Assembly: GCF_947039605.1 (NCBI RefSeq)
Contig: NZ_CAMQZG010000023.1
Location: forward strand, 1 to 54,868
DNA length: 54,868 nt
Reading direction: 5' to 3'
Origin: an uncultured Clostridium sp.
GTDB lineage: Bacteria > Bacillota > Clostridia > Clostridiales > Clostridiaceae
Position numbers and translations under genes: made by a program. Under the pieces are notes generated by a model, which was not told the DNA's origin, ran no database searches, and saw nothing but the letters and a program-made list of their open reading frames with translations. Positions 45,833 to 53,829 of the stretch are shown here, one piece after another; position 1 is the first letter of the stretch; each line of letters begins with the position of its first letter.

Positions 45833-46172
45833 AATTATATCTAATATAGTTTAATTTATACTCACTTTTATAATTTTATAATTTATATCTAGTATAGTTT
45901 AATTTATACGAAACTAGATGTTTGAATCGAACCTTATATCTATATGTTTATATCTAATATAGTTAAATTAATACTCGGAGGTTTAATTTGTTATCTAGCT
46001 GGATTTAAAAAGTTTATATCTAATATAGTTAAATTAATACCTGAGTTTTCTAATACATCTGTTTGCTCATCTAAACTGTTTATATCTAATATAGTTAAAT
46101 TAATACTTGATAAAAATACTTTAAATTCATCAATAATTACAAGGTTTATATCTAATATAGTTAAATTAATAC
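45833..46172 (-). CRISPR. Type I-B CRISPR array: four exact and two degenerate 29-bp repeats
   Basis: Four identical 29-bp repeats start at 45946, 46012, 46078 and 46144 and contain TATCTAATATAGTTAAATTA on the plus strand, with 37-bp spacers between them. Two degenerate repeats (45881-45909 and 45833-45861, each 25 of 29 matches) follow with 36-bp and 19-bp gaps. The minus-strand repeat begins GTATTAATTTAACTATAT and ends ATAAAC, resembling Clostridioides difficile I-B repeats. Minus-strand transcription is supported by this likeness, by decay at the left end and by a terminator there. Spacer sources are unknown. Confidence 0.93.
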
Positions 46173-46374
46173 CCAAAATTTTTAGCGCTTTTTTGACTAT
46201 TTCAAGCCATTTGTAGTACCTAAATTTGTATTTTCCAAGTTCCCTTTGCAGTAGACCGCCGGTCCTATTTTTGAATCTTCCTAAAAACACCCTCTAAAGC
46301 ATTGATATGACTAGTTTCAAATTGCTTTTATCCCCAAATAGGTCTACTGCAAATTGCTTTTATGCAAAATTATC
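46173..46374 (-). promoter_or_regulatory. CRISPR leader
   Basis: The 202-bp interval between cas3 and the first repeat holds no gene and lies on the upstream side of the array. It carries a 13-bp inverted repeat (TTTGCAGTAGACC at 46245-46257, complement at 46341-46353) and a 13-bp direct repeat CAAATTGCTTTTA (46318-46330 and 46350-46362). Such motifs are typical of I-B leaders used for spacer integration and transcription start, though no clear -35/-10 pair is visible. Confidence 0.65.
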
Positions 46375-48396
46375 TTATATATTTCCATCGAATTTAAGTC
46401 CAGTTTTACTATCATATTTATAATTGGCTATATAAATATAATTCTCTGTATCATAAGTGAATAAATCCTTATCTACAAACTTTTTAACTTTTCTTACATT
46501 AACTTTTAATGATTCAGCTTCAAGGAATTTCTTTTCTTTAATTAAATCTTTAAATTCTGTATATAAACACTTTGGTAATATACTTATAGTTTCTGATCCA
46601 CACATATCATCTGTAGCATCAGAATTATAAGAACCAATTTTTAAACCTTTTATTAGTAAATCAAAATATTCTATATATTTATTATACTCATCCCAGTTAA
46701 ACTCTTTATATACTTTATCAAGATAATAATTAACTTTTTCTTCTAAAATTATACTAGAATCTTTTTCTATAACTTCGCTTATTACTTTATCTGTATTTTC
46801 TATCAAAACTTCATCATAAATAGTCTTAATATTATCATAAACAAATATATCCGCTATGTCTTTTTCAGCTTTTCTATTTACTCTTCCAAACCTTTGTAGC
46901 AAAGCATCCCATGGAGCTATTTCAGTAAACATTACATCATAATCTATATTAAGTGAAACTTCTATTGCTTGTGTTCCTATAAGTAATTTATTAGTTTTTA
47001 ATCCTTGTTCTGCAACCTCTCTATCTCTTGTATTAAATCTACCATGTATTAATTTAGTTTGATATTTCACAGAAAACCTTTCATATAACTCTTGTGAAGT
47101 TTCAACATTATTTACACATAAAATCACTTGCTTTCCCTCTTCTAAACATTTTTCTATTTTATCTAAATCATCTAAAATAGTTTTTCTTACTCTATGAATT
47201 TTATGCCTTATTCTTAAATCTTTTTTATCAGCAGTTATAAATTTAGTTATTCCCAACCTTTCTTTAATAACTTCTTGTAGACAGGTCGGAATACTAGCAC
47301 TCATAATACATACACTTGCACCTAAATTTTCTTTAAGCCATTTTAACATTTCTAATATATAACTTAACTCTTTCATATCAAAACAATGAATTTCATCCAC
47401 TATAAATATTGAATTTTTCATTTGAGCCAGTAACATTTCAAATCTTTTACACCCAAACATAGCTTTAACTAATTGAAATATAGTACAAATATTAATTTGC
47501 TTCGTACTTTTCTTAAACGCCTTATAATCATCTTTTGTAAAATCATCTTTATACTTGCCTAAAAAATATTCAGCTTTACTATGTAGCATTGCTACACTTA
47601 ACCCCATTTCATTCATATCTTTATATTGTGAATTTATACTAGCTGTATATGGAAGTATGTAGTATATTCTTTTACTCTTATCTGTATTCTGAACTATATC
47701 ACTCCAAAACATTGAAGTTGCAGTTTTTCCCAATCCTGTCATAGCCATAATTAATATATCAATTTCTTCTTTTAATGCTATAACTTCTCTTTGAATGGAG
47801 TTAGGTTTACCTTGAATTTCAAATTTATTTATTGTATCTAATCCTTTGTCTATTGTAGTTATTCCAGCTGATGCCATATGGTCACAATAGTTCAATAACC
47901 CTTTTAAAATTATATTATCTAAATCAGTAACTAATTTTTTACCTTTTCTTGTTTTGCATAAATCTATAAAGTGAGTTATATCTTCAAATTCTAAATTAAA
48001 CTTTTCACTTAACTCATCCATTTCGGATTTATACTCATTTCTTACTATATTTTCCCTAAGTTTATCTAAATCTTTATGATGTGTTAAGATTGCAAGTTTA
48101 ATATTATCAGGCAAACCTTTAATGGATGCTCCATAAATTTCATGTCTTATTGTTCTCTTTTTAGTTTCTAAGTTATCCTGAAAATACTTAACACATTTTC
48201 CTATATCATGAAGCTGGCAAGCTAAATCTAATTTTCTCTCTATTACCTCATTTAATCCAAAAACTTCTTTTATTTCTTTTCTTATCACATCTAAATCTTG
48301 ATTATGTTCAAATACATTTTTATCTTCTTCTATTGATTTTGCATTATACTTCTTACATTCATTTTGAATATCTTTCAATTTTTTTTCATCTAACAT
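46375..48396 (-). CDS. cas3: CRISPR-associated nuclease-helicase Cas3
   Basis: Degrades target DNA after recruitment by Cascade. The 673-residue protein has an N-terminal HD nuclease (LHDIGKCVKYF at about 62-72, RHEIYGA, ILTHHKD at 103-109) and a superfamily 2 helicase: Walker A MTGLGKTATS (219-228), DEIH box (334-337), SASIPT-type motif III and QRFGRVNRKAE motif VI. All metal and ATP residues appear intact, so it should be active. AAGGAGC lies upstream of ATG. It is last in the cas operon, 141 bp after cas7, and that gap contains a degenerate CRISPR mini-array. Confidence 0.92.
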   Translation of the reverse strand: MLDEKKLKDIQNECKKYNAKSIEEDKNVFEHNQDLDVIRKEIKEVFGLNEVIERKLDLACQLHDIGKCVKYFQDNLETKKRTIRHEIYGASIKGLPDNIKLAILTHHKDLDKLRENIVRNEYKSEMDELSEKFNLEFEDITHFIDLCKTRKGKKLVTDLDNIILKGLLNYCDHMASAGITTIDKGLDTINKFEIQGKPNSIQREVIALKEEIDILIMAMTGLGKTATSMFWSDIVQNTDKSKRIYYILPYTASINSQYKDMNEMGLSVAMLHSKAEYFLGKYKDDFTKDDYKAFKKSTKQINICTIFQLVKAMFGCKRFEMLLAQMKNSIFIVDEIHCFDMKELSYILEMLKWLKENLGASVCIMSASIPTCLQEVIKERLGITKFITADKKDLRIRHKIHRVRKTILDDLDKIEKCLEEGKQVILCVNNVETSQELYERFSVKYQTKLIHGRFNTRDREVAEQGLKTNKLLIGTQAIEVSLNIDYDVMFTEIAPWDALLQRFGRVNRKAEKDIADIFVYDNIKTIYDEVLIENTDKVISEVIEKDSSIILEEKVNYYLDKVYKEFNWDEYNKYIEYFDLLIKGLKIGSYNSDATDDMCGSETISILPKCLYTEFKDLIKEKKFLEAESLKVNVRKVKKFVDKDLFTYDTENYIYIANYKYDSKTGLKFDGNI

Positions 48397-48416
48397 TTTT
48401 TATTGTAGCTCCTTTT

Positions 48417-48511
48417 TATAAAATCTAATATAGTTTAATTAATACTTCCAAGTTGCTGTATAAATATTATTGACGATTCGGTCTTTATATCTAACTTAGT
48501 TTAATTAGTAC
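48417..48511 (-). CRISPR. Degenerate two-repeat mini-array between cas7 and cas3
   Basis: Two repeat-like sequences (48483-48511 and 48417-48445), each matching the array repeat at 24 of 29 positions, flank a spacer of exactly 37 bp (48446-48482), the length used in the main array. The orientation matches the main array and the operon. On the minus strand the guide would begin ACCGAATCGTC after a repeat handle ending ATATAAAG. It lies upstream of the cas3 ribosome site. It may be an array remnant or a domesticated crRNA of the CreA or cas-regulating kind. Confidence 0.8.
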
Positions 48512-48537: not shown

Positions 48538-49638
48538 TCAAATTTCTATTGTAACATCAAGTGAATTGGCTAAAAACTCTCTATAAGCCCCAAAACTTCT
48601 ATGAACATTATCTACTTTTACAAACTCAAACTCCTCTGTTATTACCTTTAAACTTTCTTCAATCTCATTATAAGATTCTGCATTAAATCTATCTACACCT
48701 ATAAATACATCACTTACTCTAAACTCTTCATTTTTTTCTAGTGTTTGTCTTAACATCTTTATATCTAACCCTTTACCATTCATTAATCCTTGGAATACAT
48801 TATTACCCCATGAATATTCACCTAAAATTACAAACTTTGGTTTAGTGTCAGTTAAATAGTTATTTTGATTCCCTTGTATTGCTAAGTATTCTAAAGCTCT
48901 AAGAGTTGAATTTATTCTTTTAAATATTTCATCATTCTCTAAATCCTTTACATTTAAATTTTCTGCTGCTATTTTTGAATAATCTCTAAACTCTAAATCT
49001 TCATCAGCCACAACAAACTTACCAACTTTATCTATGTTTAAATTAGCAATTCCATAACTTACACCTGCATATGTTTCTATATTTAAAGGTAAGTTTTTTC
49101 CTGTTTCATCTTTTGAAACGCACCATTCTGTATTAACTCTTTCATTTCCAACTGCTACAACTGGACTCATTTGCATTCTTGATTTTCTTTTCATAGTTCC
49201 TGAACCAATCTTTTCATATTTTAAAGTTTTTCCTTTTCCTTTTTCACTATACATTGCCTTTAAAGCTTCATCTAACGCATTATAATCTTCCTCTGTTATA
49301 GTATCCTTTTTTGTAGCCATCATATATCCAAATATATCATCATTAGCAAATTTAGCTGGATGTGGATCACAAATTATTCTACTTTTATTTCCATTTTCAC
49401 CAGGTTGCATAACTTTTTTAGACTGCTCTAACCCATCAACTTCTCCCATGAATTGTTTTAGCCCATGCTTAGCAGATACTGTTGAAAGCATCCCTTTCCC
49501 GTTTATCTTCTTAACAAATGTCGTATTAGTTGAATTGCTTTTTTCCACATCTAATGCACTTCCTGAAAGCCTACCATTTATAATTTCTATACCATAACCT
49601 ATATTTAAAAATCTTTTTGTACCATTGCTTATCATCAT
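48538..49638 (-). CDS. cas7: Cascade backbone protein Cas7 (Cst2/DevR type)
   Basis: RNA-binding subunit that polymerises along the crRNA spacer in Cascade. The 366-residue protein sits between the cas8-like gene and cas3, as expected for type I-B operons, and has the Cas7-like start FLNIGYGIEIINGRLSGSAL and a Gly-rich, basic region near KGKGKTLKYEKIGSGTMKRK. Identification relies on this resemblance plus the operon position; the family is very divergent. It starts 14 bp after the cas8 stop with AGGAG upstream. Confidence 0.78.
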   Translation of the reverse strand: MMISNGTKRFLNIGYGIEIINGRLSGSALDVEKSNSTNTTFVKKINGKGMLSTVSAKHGLKQFMGEVDGLEQSKKVMQPGENGNKSRIICDPHPAKFANDDIFGYMMATKKDTITEEDYNALDEALKAMYSEKGKGKTLKYEKIGSGTMKRKSRMQMSPVVAVGNERVNTEWCVSKDETGKNLPLNIETYAGVSYGIANLNIDKVGKFVVADEDLEFRDYSKIAAENLNVKDLENDEIFKRINSTLRALEYLAIQGNQNNYLTDTKPKFVILGEYSWGNNVFQGLMNGKGLDIKMLRQTLEKNEEFRVSDVFIGVDRFNAESYNEIEESLKVITEEFEFVKVDNVHRSFGAYREFLANSLDVTIEI

Positions 49639-49652
49639 AATTTAACCCGCTC

Positions 49653-50828
49653 CTACATTCTTTCTATTAATTTTACTATCATTAAATTTTTTACACTTCT
49701 ATATTTCATTCTATTAGTTAATACTAATAATTCATCAGAATTAAATAGTTTTTCACCTGTAAGCTCTAAGTAACATCCTAAAGTATCTATAAGGAAATCC
49801 TCAAATGGACTTATACCTTCTTTCAGATACTTTAAAGTCTTATAACTTTCTTGTATTTTCTTTAGTTCTACAACTCCATCACAAATTTTGTCTATTAATT
49901 CAATTGTTTTAGTATTCAATCTATTTACCTCCTTATTTAAAAATTCTAATAATTCTTTACTGCATTTTATCTCAAATCTATTATTAGACTTATCAAACTT
50001 TATAATATTTTTTATGTAACTATCTGTGAGCCTTCCTTCTAGCATATTTACAAGCAAGTAATATTCCGGTGTAGTAAATTCATCCCACAAACCATTGATT
50101 TTAAGTTTATTAAACATTTCTATATCTTTATAATCTAAACCTTTTATTTCAAATGTTGGCATGCCTAAACCTATGTTGTTAAATCTAACTTGCTCAAGTG
50201 AGCCATTATAATATTTATTAACTTTAATTCCCCACATTTCTTTTATTAAGTCTACTTTTGTTGCTTCATTTTTCTTATCCTTGGCTATTTTCATGGATAT
50301 ATCTCTATTGTTTTGCACTTGAATTTTTTCAGTATAATCATACATAAAATCATTATCTGTGTGATTATATAAAATAACATCCTGCACAACTCTGCAATTA
50401 AGCATAGAAAATACTGTTAAAGTTAAGCAATGAGAACATATGTTAACACCTTGTAGGTTATTAGAGTAGTTATACATTGTAAGTGAAACTATCCCTGGCA
50501 CATATGTTTTATTGATTAAATTAAATATATTAACTTTTTTTTCACCACACCTACAACAAGTTTCTGTGCCTTTTAATTCAAATGAAGTTTTAATACTTTC
50601 TGAGAGTTCTTTGTAACCCTTCCCTTTTTGTGTTAGTGCCGAATTAGGAAAAACCATACTTTTTAAATTTGCATACTTTTCACATCCAGTAAAATCAAAT
50701 ATTCTCTCACTCATTTTTTCTATATTATCTTCTATATCTTGTTCTGTAATATCTTCTATTTCTTTATCTAAATAGTAAGCCAATATAAAAAGTCCATTAT
50801 CAACAAATACATTGTATGTTCTTTTCAC
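49653..50828 (-). CDS. cas8: Cascade large subunit Cas8 (Cst1-like, zinc-binding)
   Basis: Probable PAM-recognising large subunit, 391 residues, shorter than typical Cas8b but in the range of Cst1. Two CxxC pairs (CRCG around residues 92-95 and CSHC at 131-134) are a zinc site typical of Cst1/Cas8 proteins. The rest is divergent and mostly helical. The assignment is mainly from the order cas5-cas6-cas8-cas7-cas3 and the zinc motif. It starts two bases after the cas6 stop, so translation is coupled. Confidence 0.72.
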   Translation of the reverse strand: MKRTYNVFVDNGLFILAYYLDKEIEDITEQDIEDNIEKMSERIFDFTGCEKYANLKSMVFPNSALTQKGKGYKELSESIKTSFELKGTETCCRCGEKKVNIFNLINKTYVPGIVSLTMYNYSNNLQGVNICSHCLTLTVFSMLNCRVVQDVILYNHTDNDFMYDYTEKIQVQNNRDISMKIAKDKKNEATKVDLIKEMWGIKVNKYYNGSLEQVRFNNIGLGMPTFEIKGLDYKDIEMFNKLKINGLWDEFTTPEYYLLVNMLEGRLTDSYIKNIIKFDKSNNRFEIKCSKELLEFLNKEVNRLNTKTIELIDKICDGVVELKKIQESYKTLKYLKEGISPFEDFLIDTLGCYLELTGEKLFNSDELLVLTNRMKYRSVKNLMIVKLIERM

Positions 50829-50830
50829 AA

Positions 50831-51595
50831 CTACTCATTCCTTCCACATATATATGAAAGATGCCCCATACCTAGTGAATTATTTTGGCCTAAACCACAG
50901 TTATAAGCTATTTTTTGCATATCTACATCAGCTTGAATATATATTTCAAAATTTGAAAATCCTATGACAAATCCATCTTTATGTATATCTTTTATAAACT
51001 TTTGTTTTATCTTGCAGAAATCCTCTATTTCAAAGAATAATTCCCCTTCATATTTTTTACTATACACTGCTTCGTATTTTCTAAGTAGATTTCTCCCTAA
51101 TGCTTCATAATATCTCATATCACAAGGATTTAAGAATTCTGCTTTTTTCATATCAGGATTATATATAGATTCAACAACTGGATTTCTAACTTTGTATAGC
51201 ATTATTTTATTGAATCTAAATTTCTTATCATCTTCAACTGATTTAAGTGTTAAATTACAATTATCTATTTGTATTACTCCAGCTTTTAAAATACCTTTGA
51301 ATAATAAATTTAAAACTTTATTTGCTCCACTAATAGTAAACTTCACCGCACTACCTTTTTTAATTTCAATTCCTTCTCTTGTATAATTTGCACCTTCAAA
51401 ATACACATGAAAATTGAATAGTTTATATCTTTTGTTTTCAACTTTAAATCCTTCATTATGAATTATTTTAGTTTTTTCAGCATCTATCATAGTCATTAAT
51501 TTATACGCATCTTGCATTGATTTATATTGATAGTTATAATTTATTACACTATCTTCATTTGCTATGAAGTGAATTACTTTTCTATCTAACTGCAT
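50831..51595 (-). CDS. cas6: CRISPR RNA endoribonuclease Cas6
   Basis: Cuts the precursor CRISPR RNA in each repeat. The 254-residue protein ends with the Gly-rich loop GLGQNNSLGMGHLSYI (residues 234-249), the signature of Cas6 RAMP proteins. A His near the N-terminus (HFIANEDSVINYNY) is a candidate general base. It overlaps the cas5 gene by 14 bp and is followed at 2 bp by cas8. Confidence 0.88.
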   Translation of the reverse strand: MQLDRKVIHFIANEDSVINYNYQYKSMQDAYKLMTMIDAEKTKIIHNEGFKVENKRYKLFNFHVYFEGANYTREGIEIKKGSAVKFTISGANKVLNLLFKGILKAGVIQIDNCNLTLKSVEDDKKFRFNKIMLYKVRNPVVESIYNPDMKKAEFLNPCDMRYYEALGRNLLRKYEAVYSKKYEGELFFEIEDFCKIKQKFIKDIHKDGFVIGFSNFEIYIQADVDMQKIAYNCGLGQNNSLGMGHLSYICGRNE

Positions 51596-52223
51596 TTATT
51601 TCACCATCCTTCCAATTCCATAAGAATATGTTTTGTTCTTCTTCTTCATCATAAAATTTGTCATATTCAAATTCTTTATTGTTTTTAACAAGTTCCGTTT
51701 CATAATCATATGCACATTTATCAGAATTAAATTTAGTCAAAGTATTAATTCTTACCGGCATTCCACCTTCAATACTCATATCTGTCCACTGATTAAAACC
51801 TTGAGCTTTTTGATTTATAAGATTTACTTCTTCATCACTTACTAATGTTGCTAAATAATTTGCTTTACCCATAACTAAAGTTTCATCTAAAATAATTTTC
51901 TTATCTATATCTGTGTAAATTATCAACTCTGTATCAACTAGATGTTCTGTTATAAAGTTATCACCTGTAAATCTTCTTCCAGCTGTATATTTGTTTTTTC
52001 TTCCATCAACTTCTTTATATATTTTATTAAACTCTTTACTTATATTTTTATATTCAAAAGTAAATCCCAAAATAAAATCATTTATATTTTCTCCAAATAA
52101 ATTTTGGAGAATTCCAACTATTGATGAAATTGGTGGTTTGTCATATGTTTTTTGTAACTTTCCTTGAAGTGGAACTTTAAAATGACCTAACGGAGCTATA
52201 ATCTTAGTTTTTCTTAATTTCAT
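51582..52223 (-). CDS. cas5: Cascade subunit Cas5
   Basis: Binds the 5' handle of the crRNA. The 213-residue protein shows the Cas5 N-terminal pattern: a first strand (KLRKTKIIAPLGHFKVP), then TYDKPPISSIVGILQNLFGE, the Pro-rich segment leading to a helix seen in Cas5 families, and a later Gly-containing strand MPVRINTLTKF. It is the first gene of the operon. GAGGTG precedes the ATG. The 265-bp gap upstream contains a hairpin that ends the restriction operon and should hold the cas promoter. Confidence 0.82.
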   Translation of the reverse strand: MKLRKTKIIAPLGHFKVPLQGKLQKTYDKPPISSIVGILQNLFGENINDFILGFTFEYKNISKEFNKIYKEVDGRKNKYTAGRRFTGDNFITEHLVDTELIIYTDIDKKIILDETLVMGKANYLATLVSDEEVNLINQKAQGFNQWTDMSIEGGMPVRINTLTKFNSDKCAYDYETELVKNNKEFEYDKFYDEEEEQNIFLWNWKDGEINAVR

Positions 52224-52342
52224 TTTTTCACCTCATTTTCTTTTATAATATTATATGGATTTATTTTTAATATTTATCTATACTATTGTTCCAAAGTTTT
52301 CTAAATATATTCATAAATATTATTTTTATTTTATAGTAAAAT

Positions 52343-52376
52343 AAGCTGTGCTAAAATTTAAATTCTAGCATAGCTT
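52343..52376 (-). terminator. Hairpin after the McrBC-like operon
   Basis: A 16-bp stem with two mismatches (AAGCTGTGCTAAAATT and AATTCTAGCATAGCTT) in the 265-bp gap between the nuclease gene and cas5. The T tract is interrupted (ATTTTA) on the minus strand. It probably ends the restriction transcript before the cas promoter. Confidence 0.55.
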
Positions 52377-52488
52377 TCTTATTCTTATATTTTATTCTAA
52401 CTATTCAGGTGTTGTAATTAGTTAATTATTTCGATAACTTAAATACCTCTATAATTTTTTTTCATTTACAACGCCCTATTCTTTACAC

Positions 52489-53829
52489 TTATCTAACATC
52501 TTTCAATAGCTTTATTATTTTTATAAAGTTAAAAACTTTATTAGAAGAAAATATTTCAATAAACTCCGTATCATTTATATTCATTAAAACTATCTGATTT
52601 GCTTTTATTTTCACACTCTTCATAAATTCTAATTCAACTTGACCTACTTTCCTAGTTTCTAATTCACTTGGAAATAAAAATATATTATATATATAGTCAA
52701 TATCATTTTCTTTTATATATTTTTCACATATTGTTTCATACAAATATTGTTTTGTTACATCAGAAATACCTGGGTTAGCACTTATTTTATCATCTTCATA
52801 TTTCATACAATAATACTTAGCATCAAAGATCAATAAATATTTTTTCCCCTCATATACACACATCGTCATAATATCCGGCTTTAATATATTTCTTTTATTA
52901 TACATTTCTTTATTATCAATTACCCATTTTGGTGTTTCAAATTTATACTTGTCTTCAATGCTTTTTATTTCATTATTTAAAACTCTTGAGCATAAAGTTT
53001 CCCAAATATACTTAAAATTTCGAGTTCCATAAAAATACATTTCATTATCAACTTCACTCACACTCTTCATTTCCAGATAATTAATCATGTATGTTATTGT
53101 ATTTATTTTGCTATCTTTAAATTGTACTTCTAACTCTTTTTTCAATATTTCAGCACAAAATATAAAATCTTCTATTTGTATAATATTCCTTAAGTTTATA
53201 TCTATCTCATACCCTAATATATCTATAATTTCTTTTTTTCTTAGGAATTCAATTGCATCATTTAATATAAAATAATGCAATTTTGTAATAAAATTATCTT
53301 CTTCATCCATGTTTTCCTCTGTATAATACTCTGTATAAATATATTGTCCATTAAATACTAATGGATCTAAACTATCTATCGTATCTCCCCAATCAATAGC
53401 CCCATTTCCATTTATAATTTTTAATTTATATTCCTCAAAATATATCCCGTTACTTATATAATCTTCTAAAATTAAAATTGAATTATATATTTTACTGTTC
53501 ATCTTCTTACTTTCTGCCCATTCACTACCAACAAATATATTTCTTTCAACACTTTTTTCTAAATACATCTTTTTTAGTATTTTAAATATAGTCTTAAAAG
53601 AACTGTACTTATTATCACCTAAACTCGTATATTTAGGATTTATGCTAATAATAATCTCTCTCCAAGCTATTATTCCAACATAGTCAAAACAAAATTGCTC
53701 TTTGTTGTTATATTTAATAATGTTTTTTTTAATTAAACACGCCCATAATTCATCTATATTTTTAGTAGGCAATTTTTTCTCAAACTCTAAACTAGTCATA
53801 TATTCCAACTCTTTAAAAAATATCATCAT
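52489..53829 (-). CDS. McrC/LlaJI-like restriction nuclease subunit
   Basis: DNA-cleaving partner of the McrB-like motor encoded upstream, 446 residues. The C-terminal third has the PD-(D/E)xK nuclease core: LKPDIMTMC, then KYLLIFDAKYYCMKYEDD, followed by GISDVTKQYLYETICEKY, a pattern shared with LlaJI-type and McrC-type nucleases. The N-terminal two-thirds are probably the motor-contacting domain. It starts 7 bp after the upstream stop. If it is LlaJI-like, methyltransferase genes would lie outside the window; if McrC-like, it would cut methylated DNA. Confidence 0.75.
   Translation of the reverse strand: MMIFFKELEYMTSLEFEKKLPTKNIDELWACLIKKNIIKYNNKEQFCFDYVGIIAWREIIISINPKYTSLGDNKYSSFKTIFKILKKMYLEKSVERNIFVGSEWAESKKMNSKIYNSILILEDYISNGIYFEEYKLKIINGNGAIDWGDTIDSLDPLVFNGQYIYTEYYTEENMDEEDNFITKLHYFILNDAIEFLRKKEIIDILGYEIDINLRNIIQIEDFIFCAEILKKELEVQFKDSKINTITYMINYLEMKSVSEVDNEMYFYGTRNFKYIWETLCSRVLNNEIKSIEDKYKFETPKWVIDNKEMYNKRNILKPDIMTMCVYEGKKYLLIFDAKYYCMKYEDDKISANPGISDVTKQYLYETICEKYIKENDIDYIYNIFLFPSELETRKVGQVELEFMKSVKIKANQIVLMNINDTEFIEIFSSNKVFNFIKIIKLLKDVR

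Follow-up and report, generated by a model that had tools for sequence, protein, structure and literature searches.

A repeat-spacer-repeat unit in the cas7-cas3 gap

The window, by which we mean the whole stretch of 54,868 nucleotides of DNA analysed here, from an uncultured Clostridium sp., carries a type I-B cas operon in the order cas5-cas6-cas8-cas7-[unit]-cas3, followed by the main array (Table 1), with cas8 assigned from a weak match and its position. The three spacers between the consensus repeats of this array measure 37, 37, and 37 nt, and its two decayed repeats (25/29) are the outermost ones. Genes for a LlaJI-type restriction endonuclease and a McrB-like AAA protein lie immediately upstream of the cas operon, where the contig ends (52489-54841). 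The genome harbors two I-B operons with arrays, yet a Cas1 profile found no match in the whole assembly, which is rated 97.6% complete.

Table 1. Positions of the features discussed; L-numbers denote loci outside the window.
Feature	Position	Strand	Evidence or remark
cas3 (helicase/HD nuclease), directly downstream of unit	46375..48396	-	TIGR01587 2.9e-60, TIGR01596 1.8e-19, both over cut-off
cas7, directly upstream of unit	48538..49638	-	TIGR02585 1.2e-18, just under cut-off; PADLOC Cas7b 1e-21
cas8b-like gene	49653..50828	-	no NCBIfam match; weak PADLOC Cas8b, E 0.003; operon position
cas6 (expected processor of unit)	50831..51595	-	TIGR01877 3.8e-16, over cut-off
cas5b	51582..52223	-	TIGR01895 1.9e-9, under cut-off; TIGR02593 over cut-off
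Main window array	45833..46172	-	four consensus repeats and two at 25/29
Repeat 1 (upstream; source of 5' handle ATATAAAG)	48483..48511	-	24/29 to window array repeat, 27/29 to C38 array repeat
Spacer, 37 nt	48446..48482	-	frame 1 = TESSIIFIQQLG, SF2 helicase motif VI
Repeat 2	48417..48445	-	24/29 to window array repeat, 24/29 to C38 array repeat
Unit on contig C38, cas7-cas3 gap	L009 7838-7931		same build: repeat-spacer-repeat, 36-nt spacer (spacer B)
Helicase ORF on contig C19	L087 3541-6414		957 aa; ResIII 2e-39, DUF3427 5e-57, PLDc_2 1e-9; also Helicase_C
DUF4177 gene on contig C38	L009 11693-11914		seed-like guide match at start
DUF4177 gene on contig C75	L031 75-329		seed-like guide match at start
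Leader inverted repeat, window	46245-46353
Leader inverted repeat, C38 locus	L009 10008-10116
39-aa ORF of C. difficile CD160	L019 6870-6989		phrog_38429, E 2.9e-14; upstream of cas5

Two 29-nt repeats and a 37-nt spacer occupy 48417-48511 of the minus strand, within a cas7-cas3 gap of 141 bp (cas7 end 48538, cas3 start 48396). The coordinates, the 24/29 matches of each repeat, the orientation shared with the main array, the spacer of main-array length, and the size of the gap had all been reported in a first-pass annotation of this DNA, and the re-count confirmed each of them. The last 8 nt of repeat 1 agree with the C38 array repeat at 8/8 positions; repeat 2 agrees with both array repeats over its first 21 nt (20/21), its last 8 nt reaching only 4/8. 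When 40 first-order Markov copies of the window were scanned for the best 29-mer against the repeat, the best attained 22/29, with 9 sites of at least 22 in total, compared with 27 and 24 in the real unit; outside the unit and the array, the real window has no site of at least 22/29. The unit is far beyond chance, and the observation is real. With array repeats (24-27/29) around a spacer of array length (37 nt), it has the composition of a minimal CRISPR array.

No ORF of at least 20 aa was found wholly inside the gap, which bears out the earlier remark that the gap has no toxin-like small ORF, and a 31-aa ORF on the plus strand (48333-48428) extends into it from inside cas3. Between 48300 and 48700 there are two promoter-like sites, compared with a shuffle mean of 2.8, i.e., no excess, and no terminator-like site. 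A ribosome-site-like AAAGGAG follows repeat 2 on its 3' side, in this unit and in that of contig C38 alike.

The paralogous operon and the relatives

Contig C38 of the same genome carries a paralogous type I-B operon with the same gene order, 78-82% protein identity, and an array of its own, with 21 spacers of 34-39 nt. Its cas7-cas3 gap harbors the second unit, and the spacers of the two units, 37 nt in the window and 36 nt on C38, are both within the array range. They are unrelated in sequence, with at most 9/36 identities at the ungapped offsets tried, while the repeats agree at 25/29 positions for repeat 1 and at 21/21 for the first 21 nt of repeat 2. By comparison, four-fold synonymous sites of five cas genes are identical between the two operons at 211 of 364 positions (58%). 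The last 8 nt of repeat 2, which lie past the expected Cas6 site, have decayed in both units (4/8 in the window and 5/8 on C38 against the C38 array repeat), and the handle in repeat 1 matches that array repeat at 8/8 and 7/8 positions, respectively. In this one pair of units, the parts used for crRNA maturation have been kept and the dispensable ones lost. Because the core of repeat 2 is 21/21 in spite of a four-fold identity of 58%, the unit looks maintained and not like scattered debris, although a single pair was compared, in which the repeats could also have stayed alike through exchange with the arrays. The first-pass annotation had taken the spacer length kept between decayed repeats as a sign of selection as opposed to scatter; the repeat cores kept in a diverged paralogous operon speak for this proposal, which the single pair and the possible exchange with arrays temper.

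The C38 unit also contains a 23-aa ORF, MLDIKFVEVVGSGYSYNVLIKLY (L009 7852-7923), which extends from repeat 1 across the spacer and into repeat 2. Its KFVEV is reminiscent of the YKFVEV with which the DUF4177 protein encoded on C38 starts.

At E 1e-3, Cas7 matches were found in 5 of 98 relatives, at 1e-20 in 2/206 family genomes and 1/391 class genomes, and at 1e-30 in 2/225 order genomes and 1/398 phylum genomes, each of these counts including the genome itself; the Cas7 search returned three loci of genome contigs, no viral contigs, and no plasmids. Comparison of the gap in related genomes had been proposed as a check on the first-pass annotation. No unit was seen in the relatives examined, the weak Cas7 loci L011-L014 and L016 being outside the comparison, but the paralogous C38 operon of the same genome keeps one. 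In two C. difficile loci (L017 and L019) cas7 and cas3 are 10 bp apart, and two further loci (L018 and L020) have degenerate repeats directly 3' of cas7. The former of these, from C. carboxidivorans P7 (L018 11054-11450), belongs to a related operon whose cas7 is followed by a few degenerate repeats in place of a cas3-sized ORF.

Ancestry of the spacers

Frame 1 of the window spacer encodes TESSIIFIQQLG, and the helicase encoded on contig C19 of the same genome has TQSSIVFIQQLG, in a region that we take to be motif VI of ResIII/DUF3427 helicases, followed by RGLR. The whole spacer matches this helicase ORF at 30/37 positions without a gap, whereas 25 shuffled spacers reached 21-23 in the same 11 kb of the C19 locus and the best score across 179,549 bases of background from own-genome loci was 23. 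When the genome was searched with the whole gap, positions 7-37 of the spacer and one additional base matched C19 with an E value of 2.4e-4. Five of the seven mismatches between C19 and the spacer fall at third codon positions (hypergeometric P 0.025). The same 12 amino acids, TESSIIFIQQLG, are found in an unannotated stretch of an S. aureus plasmid record (L099), and of seven viral-contig loci fetched by a pattern for the motif RPTES..QQLGRG, five have their best spacer site at that motif. Judged from the sequence, helicase codons (ACC GAA TCG TCA, i.e., TESS) account for the seed of the window guide, ACCGAATC.

The triplet 5' of the homologous site is CCA in the C19 locus, CCA in the plasmid record, and CCT in a third locus (L100), these being the three loci that had not been picked for CCN. 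The homologous sites sit behind CCN because the preceding codon in these proteins is that of proline. The PAM of the C. difficile I-B system is YCN according to the accessible part of PMC8406132; it is borrowed here and may not be that of the window system. Spacers of the C38 array, compared with phages and plasmids for a PAM, gave no convincing protospacer. As for a foreign origin of the window spacer, the coding match to the helicase family comes with CCN, but an exact protospacer was not found in viral contigs, phages, or plasmids: its first 20 nt and a degenerate pattern for TESSIIFIQQLG both had 0 matches in the viral contigs, and the matches returned by phage and plasmid BLAST covered less than 80% of the spacer, with E values of 5-6.

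For spacer B, the phage, viral-contig, and other sequence searches made revealed no origin. A 19-nt phage match (H28, E 0.4) was read as chance; its site is unannotated and lies opposite a 244-aa ORF that resembles a wall protein, not DUF4177. A similarity of the spacer B peptide to viral contig L101 (22/36 identity, in a 78-aa frame opposite a 216-aa ORF) was likewise read as chance.

Function of the unit

Since its guide traces to a helicase and not to a cas control region, the window unit looks like an immune guide rather than a regulatory RNA. We favor, as reasonably probable, the reading that it is an operon-embedded minimal array, which makes one immunity-type crRNA from the cas mRNA. 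Against this reading, the searches described above met no exact protospacer, and the Cas1 profile matched nowhere in the assembly. We infer a course that runs from capture to interference. The guide would have been captured, from a mobile element, out of a PLD/ResIII/DUF3427-family helicase gene and beside a CCN PAM. As no promoter of its own is evident, the unit probably forms part of the cas transcript, from which Cas6, by cleaving both repeats, would free a single normal crRNA, composed of the 8-nt handle ATATAAAG, the 37-nt guide, and about 21 nt of repeat 2. The predicted processed RNA is thus about 66 nt long and starts with ATATAAAGACCGAATC. Loaded into Cascade, it would mediate interference with incoming DNA that carries a matching helicase gene behind CCN. 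As a side effect, Cas6 cutting would detach the cas3 message from that of Cascade, leaving it, once the second cut is made, with about a dozen bases ahead of its own ribosome site. A guide inside the cas mRNA would tie guide dose to Cascade dose, and the unit would place Cas6 cuts between Cascade and cas3. Should selection be keeping the unit in both diverged operons, the arrangement is compact and can be put to a direct test.

That separation of messages might itself be what the unit is for, the repeats serving as Cas6 sites in the cas mRNA that separate cas3 from the genes of Cascade and adjust the ratio between them, with the spacer incidental. Repeat cores conserved between operons whose spacers are unrelated are what such a role would leave, and the AAAGGAG after repeat 2 in both units, the lack of a terminator-like site, and the lack of a promoter-like excess around the window gap are in keeping with it. 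However, a single repeat would suffice for this purpose, and neither a full-length spacer in both units nor an intact helicase coding match is predicted by it; we consider it unlikely. A neutral relic is about as unlikely; the unit would then be an old mini-array caught between cas7 and cas3 and no longer used, to which the decayed tails of repeat 2 would point, as would the lack of a visible promoter and the decay of the outermost repeats in the window array itself. Set against this, the agreement of the repeat-2 core and of repeat 1 (21/21 and 25/29) stands far above the 58% at four-fold sites, at which rate a 21-nt identity has a probability of 0.58^21, or about 1e-5, an argument limited to one pair of units between which gene conversion from the arrays may have acted.

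The regulatory readings start from the seed. In the cas promoter region (52200-52500) the best site for the window guide agrees at 6 of 10 counted seed positions, and in three other stretches of the window, self excluded, at 5-6 of 10; guide B reaches 7/10 at best in a cas promoter region. A CreR-type guide directed at the cas promoter, for which the presence of a crRNA-like unit in the cas locus might speak, was rejected, as neither guide matches these regions. Silencing of the genome's own C19 helicase gene would draw on the CCA and on 27/31 matches with each sixth position omitted (mismatches 3, 4, 9, and 16), but the site lies mid-gene and two mismatches fall within the first five bases. 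A cas-regulating RNA of the CreR type or such a silencer is, of all the readings considered, the one to which we give least credence.

With the CreA pairing criterion (guide nt 1-5 and 7-11 plus PAM), no target was found inside the gap, and the best site, at 9/10 with CCA, belongs to a different contig, where it lies at a DUF4177 gene. Just two DUF4177 matches at E ≤ 0.01 occur in the genome, and the start of each is touched by the seed of one guide: the window guide agrees with the C75 gene at 10/12 positions from its 5' end, beside CCA, and guide B with the C38 gene over 13 nt from its first base. The small DUF4177 genes might then be repressed by partial pairing with CreA-like guides, in the manner of CreTA or CrePA, with one unit per operon and one gene per guide. 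Guide B had already suggested DUF4177 by the time the C75 site came to be examined. Composition-matched shuffles of the first 12 bases reached the DUF4177 scores in only 3/1000 cases for the window guide and 0/1000 for guide B, the C75 site is the best extended of 10 non-self seed sites (score 32 vs. ≤20), and antibacterial activity has been reported for a DUF4177 protein in the accessible part of PMC11322243.

Several observations tell against such a role. The helicase codons fully explain the window guide. The gapped score of 32 is equalled once within the window (near 53300), and a scan of 172,206 positions over the first 17 guide bases gave 105 with a score no lower than that of the C75 site. 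Among random 37-mers of the window compared with the same DUF4177 regions, 387/3000 reach 9/10 and 18/3000 reach 10/10, and one of the 21 C38 array spacers reaches 9. The guide B site is flanked by AAA, not YCN, and is one of three exact 13-mers and of 48 non-self one-mismatch sites (BLAST E 0.16). The C75 gene and the window unit are on different contigs, and homologues of both DUF4177 proteins are present in a congener (G002) in which the window Cas7 has no match. DUF4177 targeting was demoted, as the spacer matches the C19 helicase better (E 2.4e-4), and we regard it as quite improbable. No greater credence attaches to the fuller model, in which the cas-mRNA guide of each I-B operon would hold down one DUF4177 gene and loss or block of Cascade would release the DUF4177 protein. 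If true, it would represent a CRISPR-repressed effector family built from re-used captured spacers, of which the literature search met no description. The scoring of partial guide matches genome-wide that the first-pass annotation had called for yielded the C75 start with its CCA, but an equal score is found elsewhere and helicase codons explain the seed of the guide. While the observation reported in that annotation was confirmed and the case for selection partly supported, the regulatory guide toward which it leaned was not: there is neither a cas-promoter match nor a toxin-like ORF in the gap, and the spacer has a coding origin in helicase motif VI together with CCA.

Among known systems, the window unit resembles an ordinary type I-B array or mini-CRISPR in its repeat, spacer length, orientation, and 5' handle, in the YCN-type triplet beside the homologous site, and in its coding-derived spacer. 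It differs in having one spacer and no visible leader, in its position between cas7 and cas3, and in partly degenerate repeats that both paralogous operons have kept. A one-spacer array embedded in an operon departs only modestly from known mini-CRISPRs; a literature search, most subscription papers being outside it, met no description of one between cas7 and cas3, which says little. CreA of CreTA is found in haloarchaeal I-B and Acinetobacter I-F systems and, in the accessible parts of the sources, likewise consists of two degenerate repeats around a spacer in the cas locus (PMC8501985; PMC10097628; PMC9458426). As in the description in PMC8501985, as far as its text was available, the window unit has two degenerate repeats with handle and Cas6 core, but no creT is adjacent and no toxin ORF of at least 20 aa lies beside it. 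It also differs from CreA in its full-length spacer with a gene-derived coding match, its repeats of still 24-27/29, and the lack of a convincing promoter target. CreR, as presented in the available portions of PMC12737573 and PMC13131331, is similarly a crRNA-like unit near cas genes, but the window guide has no match to a cas promoter. With scaRNA and other self-targeting regulatory guides, as treated in the accessible part of PMC9458426, it shares a partial match to an own gene, that of the C19 helicase; this match differs in being mid-gene, with seed mismatches and no evidence of regulation. Two degenerate repeats in a cas operon do not, on their own, count as evidence for a regulator of the CreA or CreR type; an ordinary coding ancestry of the spacer between them should be tested before one is claimed.

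A yardstick is provided by the related I-B operon of C. difficile CD160 (L019), with a Cas7 that is 44-48% identical. Behind its cas3, decayed repeats of 24/29 and 21/29 flank a 19-nt spacer (L019 13128-13204). The guide matches 14/15 counted positions beside CCG at L019 7045-7061, the next best site in 21 kb reaching 11, and this site overlaps by eye a TATAAT-like box upstream of a 39-aa ORF before cas5. In strain CD10-165 (L017), no repeat pair of at least 20/29 was found behind cas3, nor such an ORF in the inspected stretch. By these features of its sequence, the CD160 module appears to be a strong CreTA-like candidate, far better than the window unit, which has a full-length, coding-derived spacer and no near target. 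Both array leaders of the Clostridium genome contain a long inverted repeat, TTTGCAGTAGACC(TCC)...GGTCTACTGCAAA, around 77-83 nt, and by eye a similar inverted repeat precedes the CD160 array.
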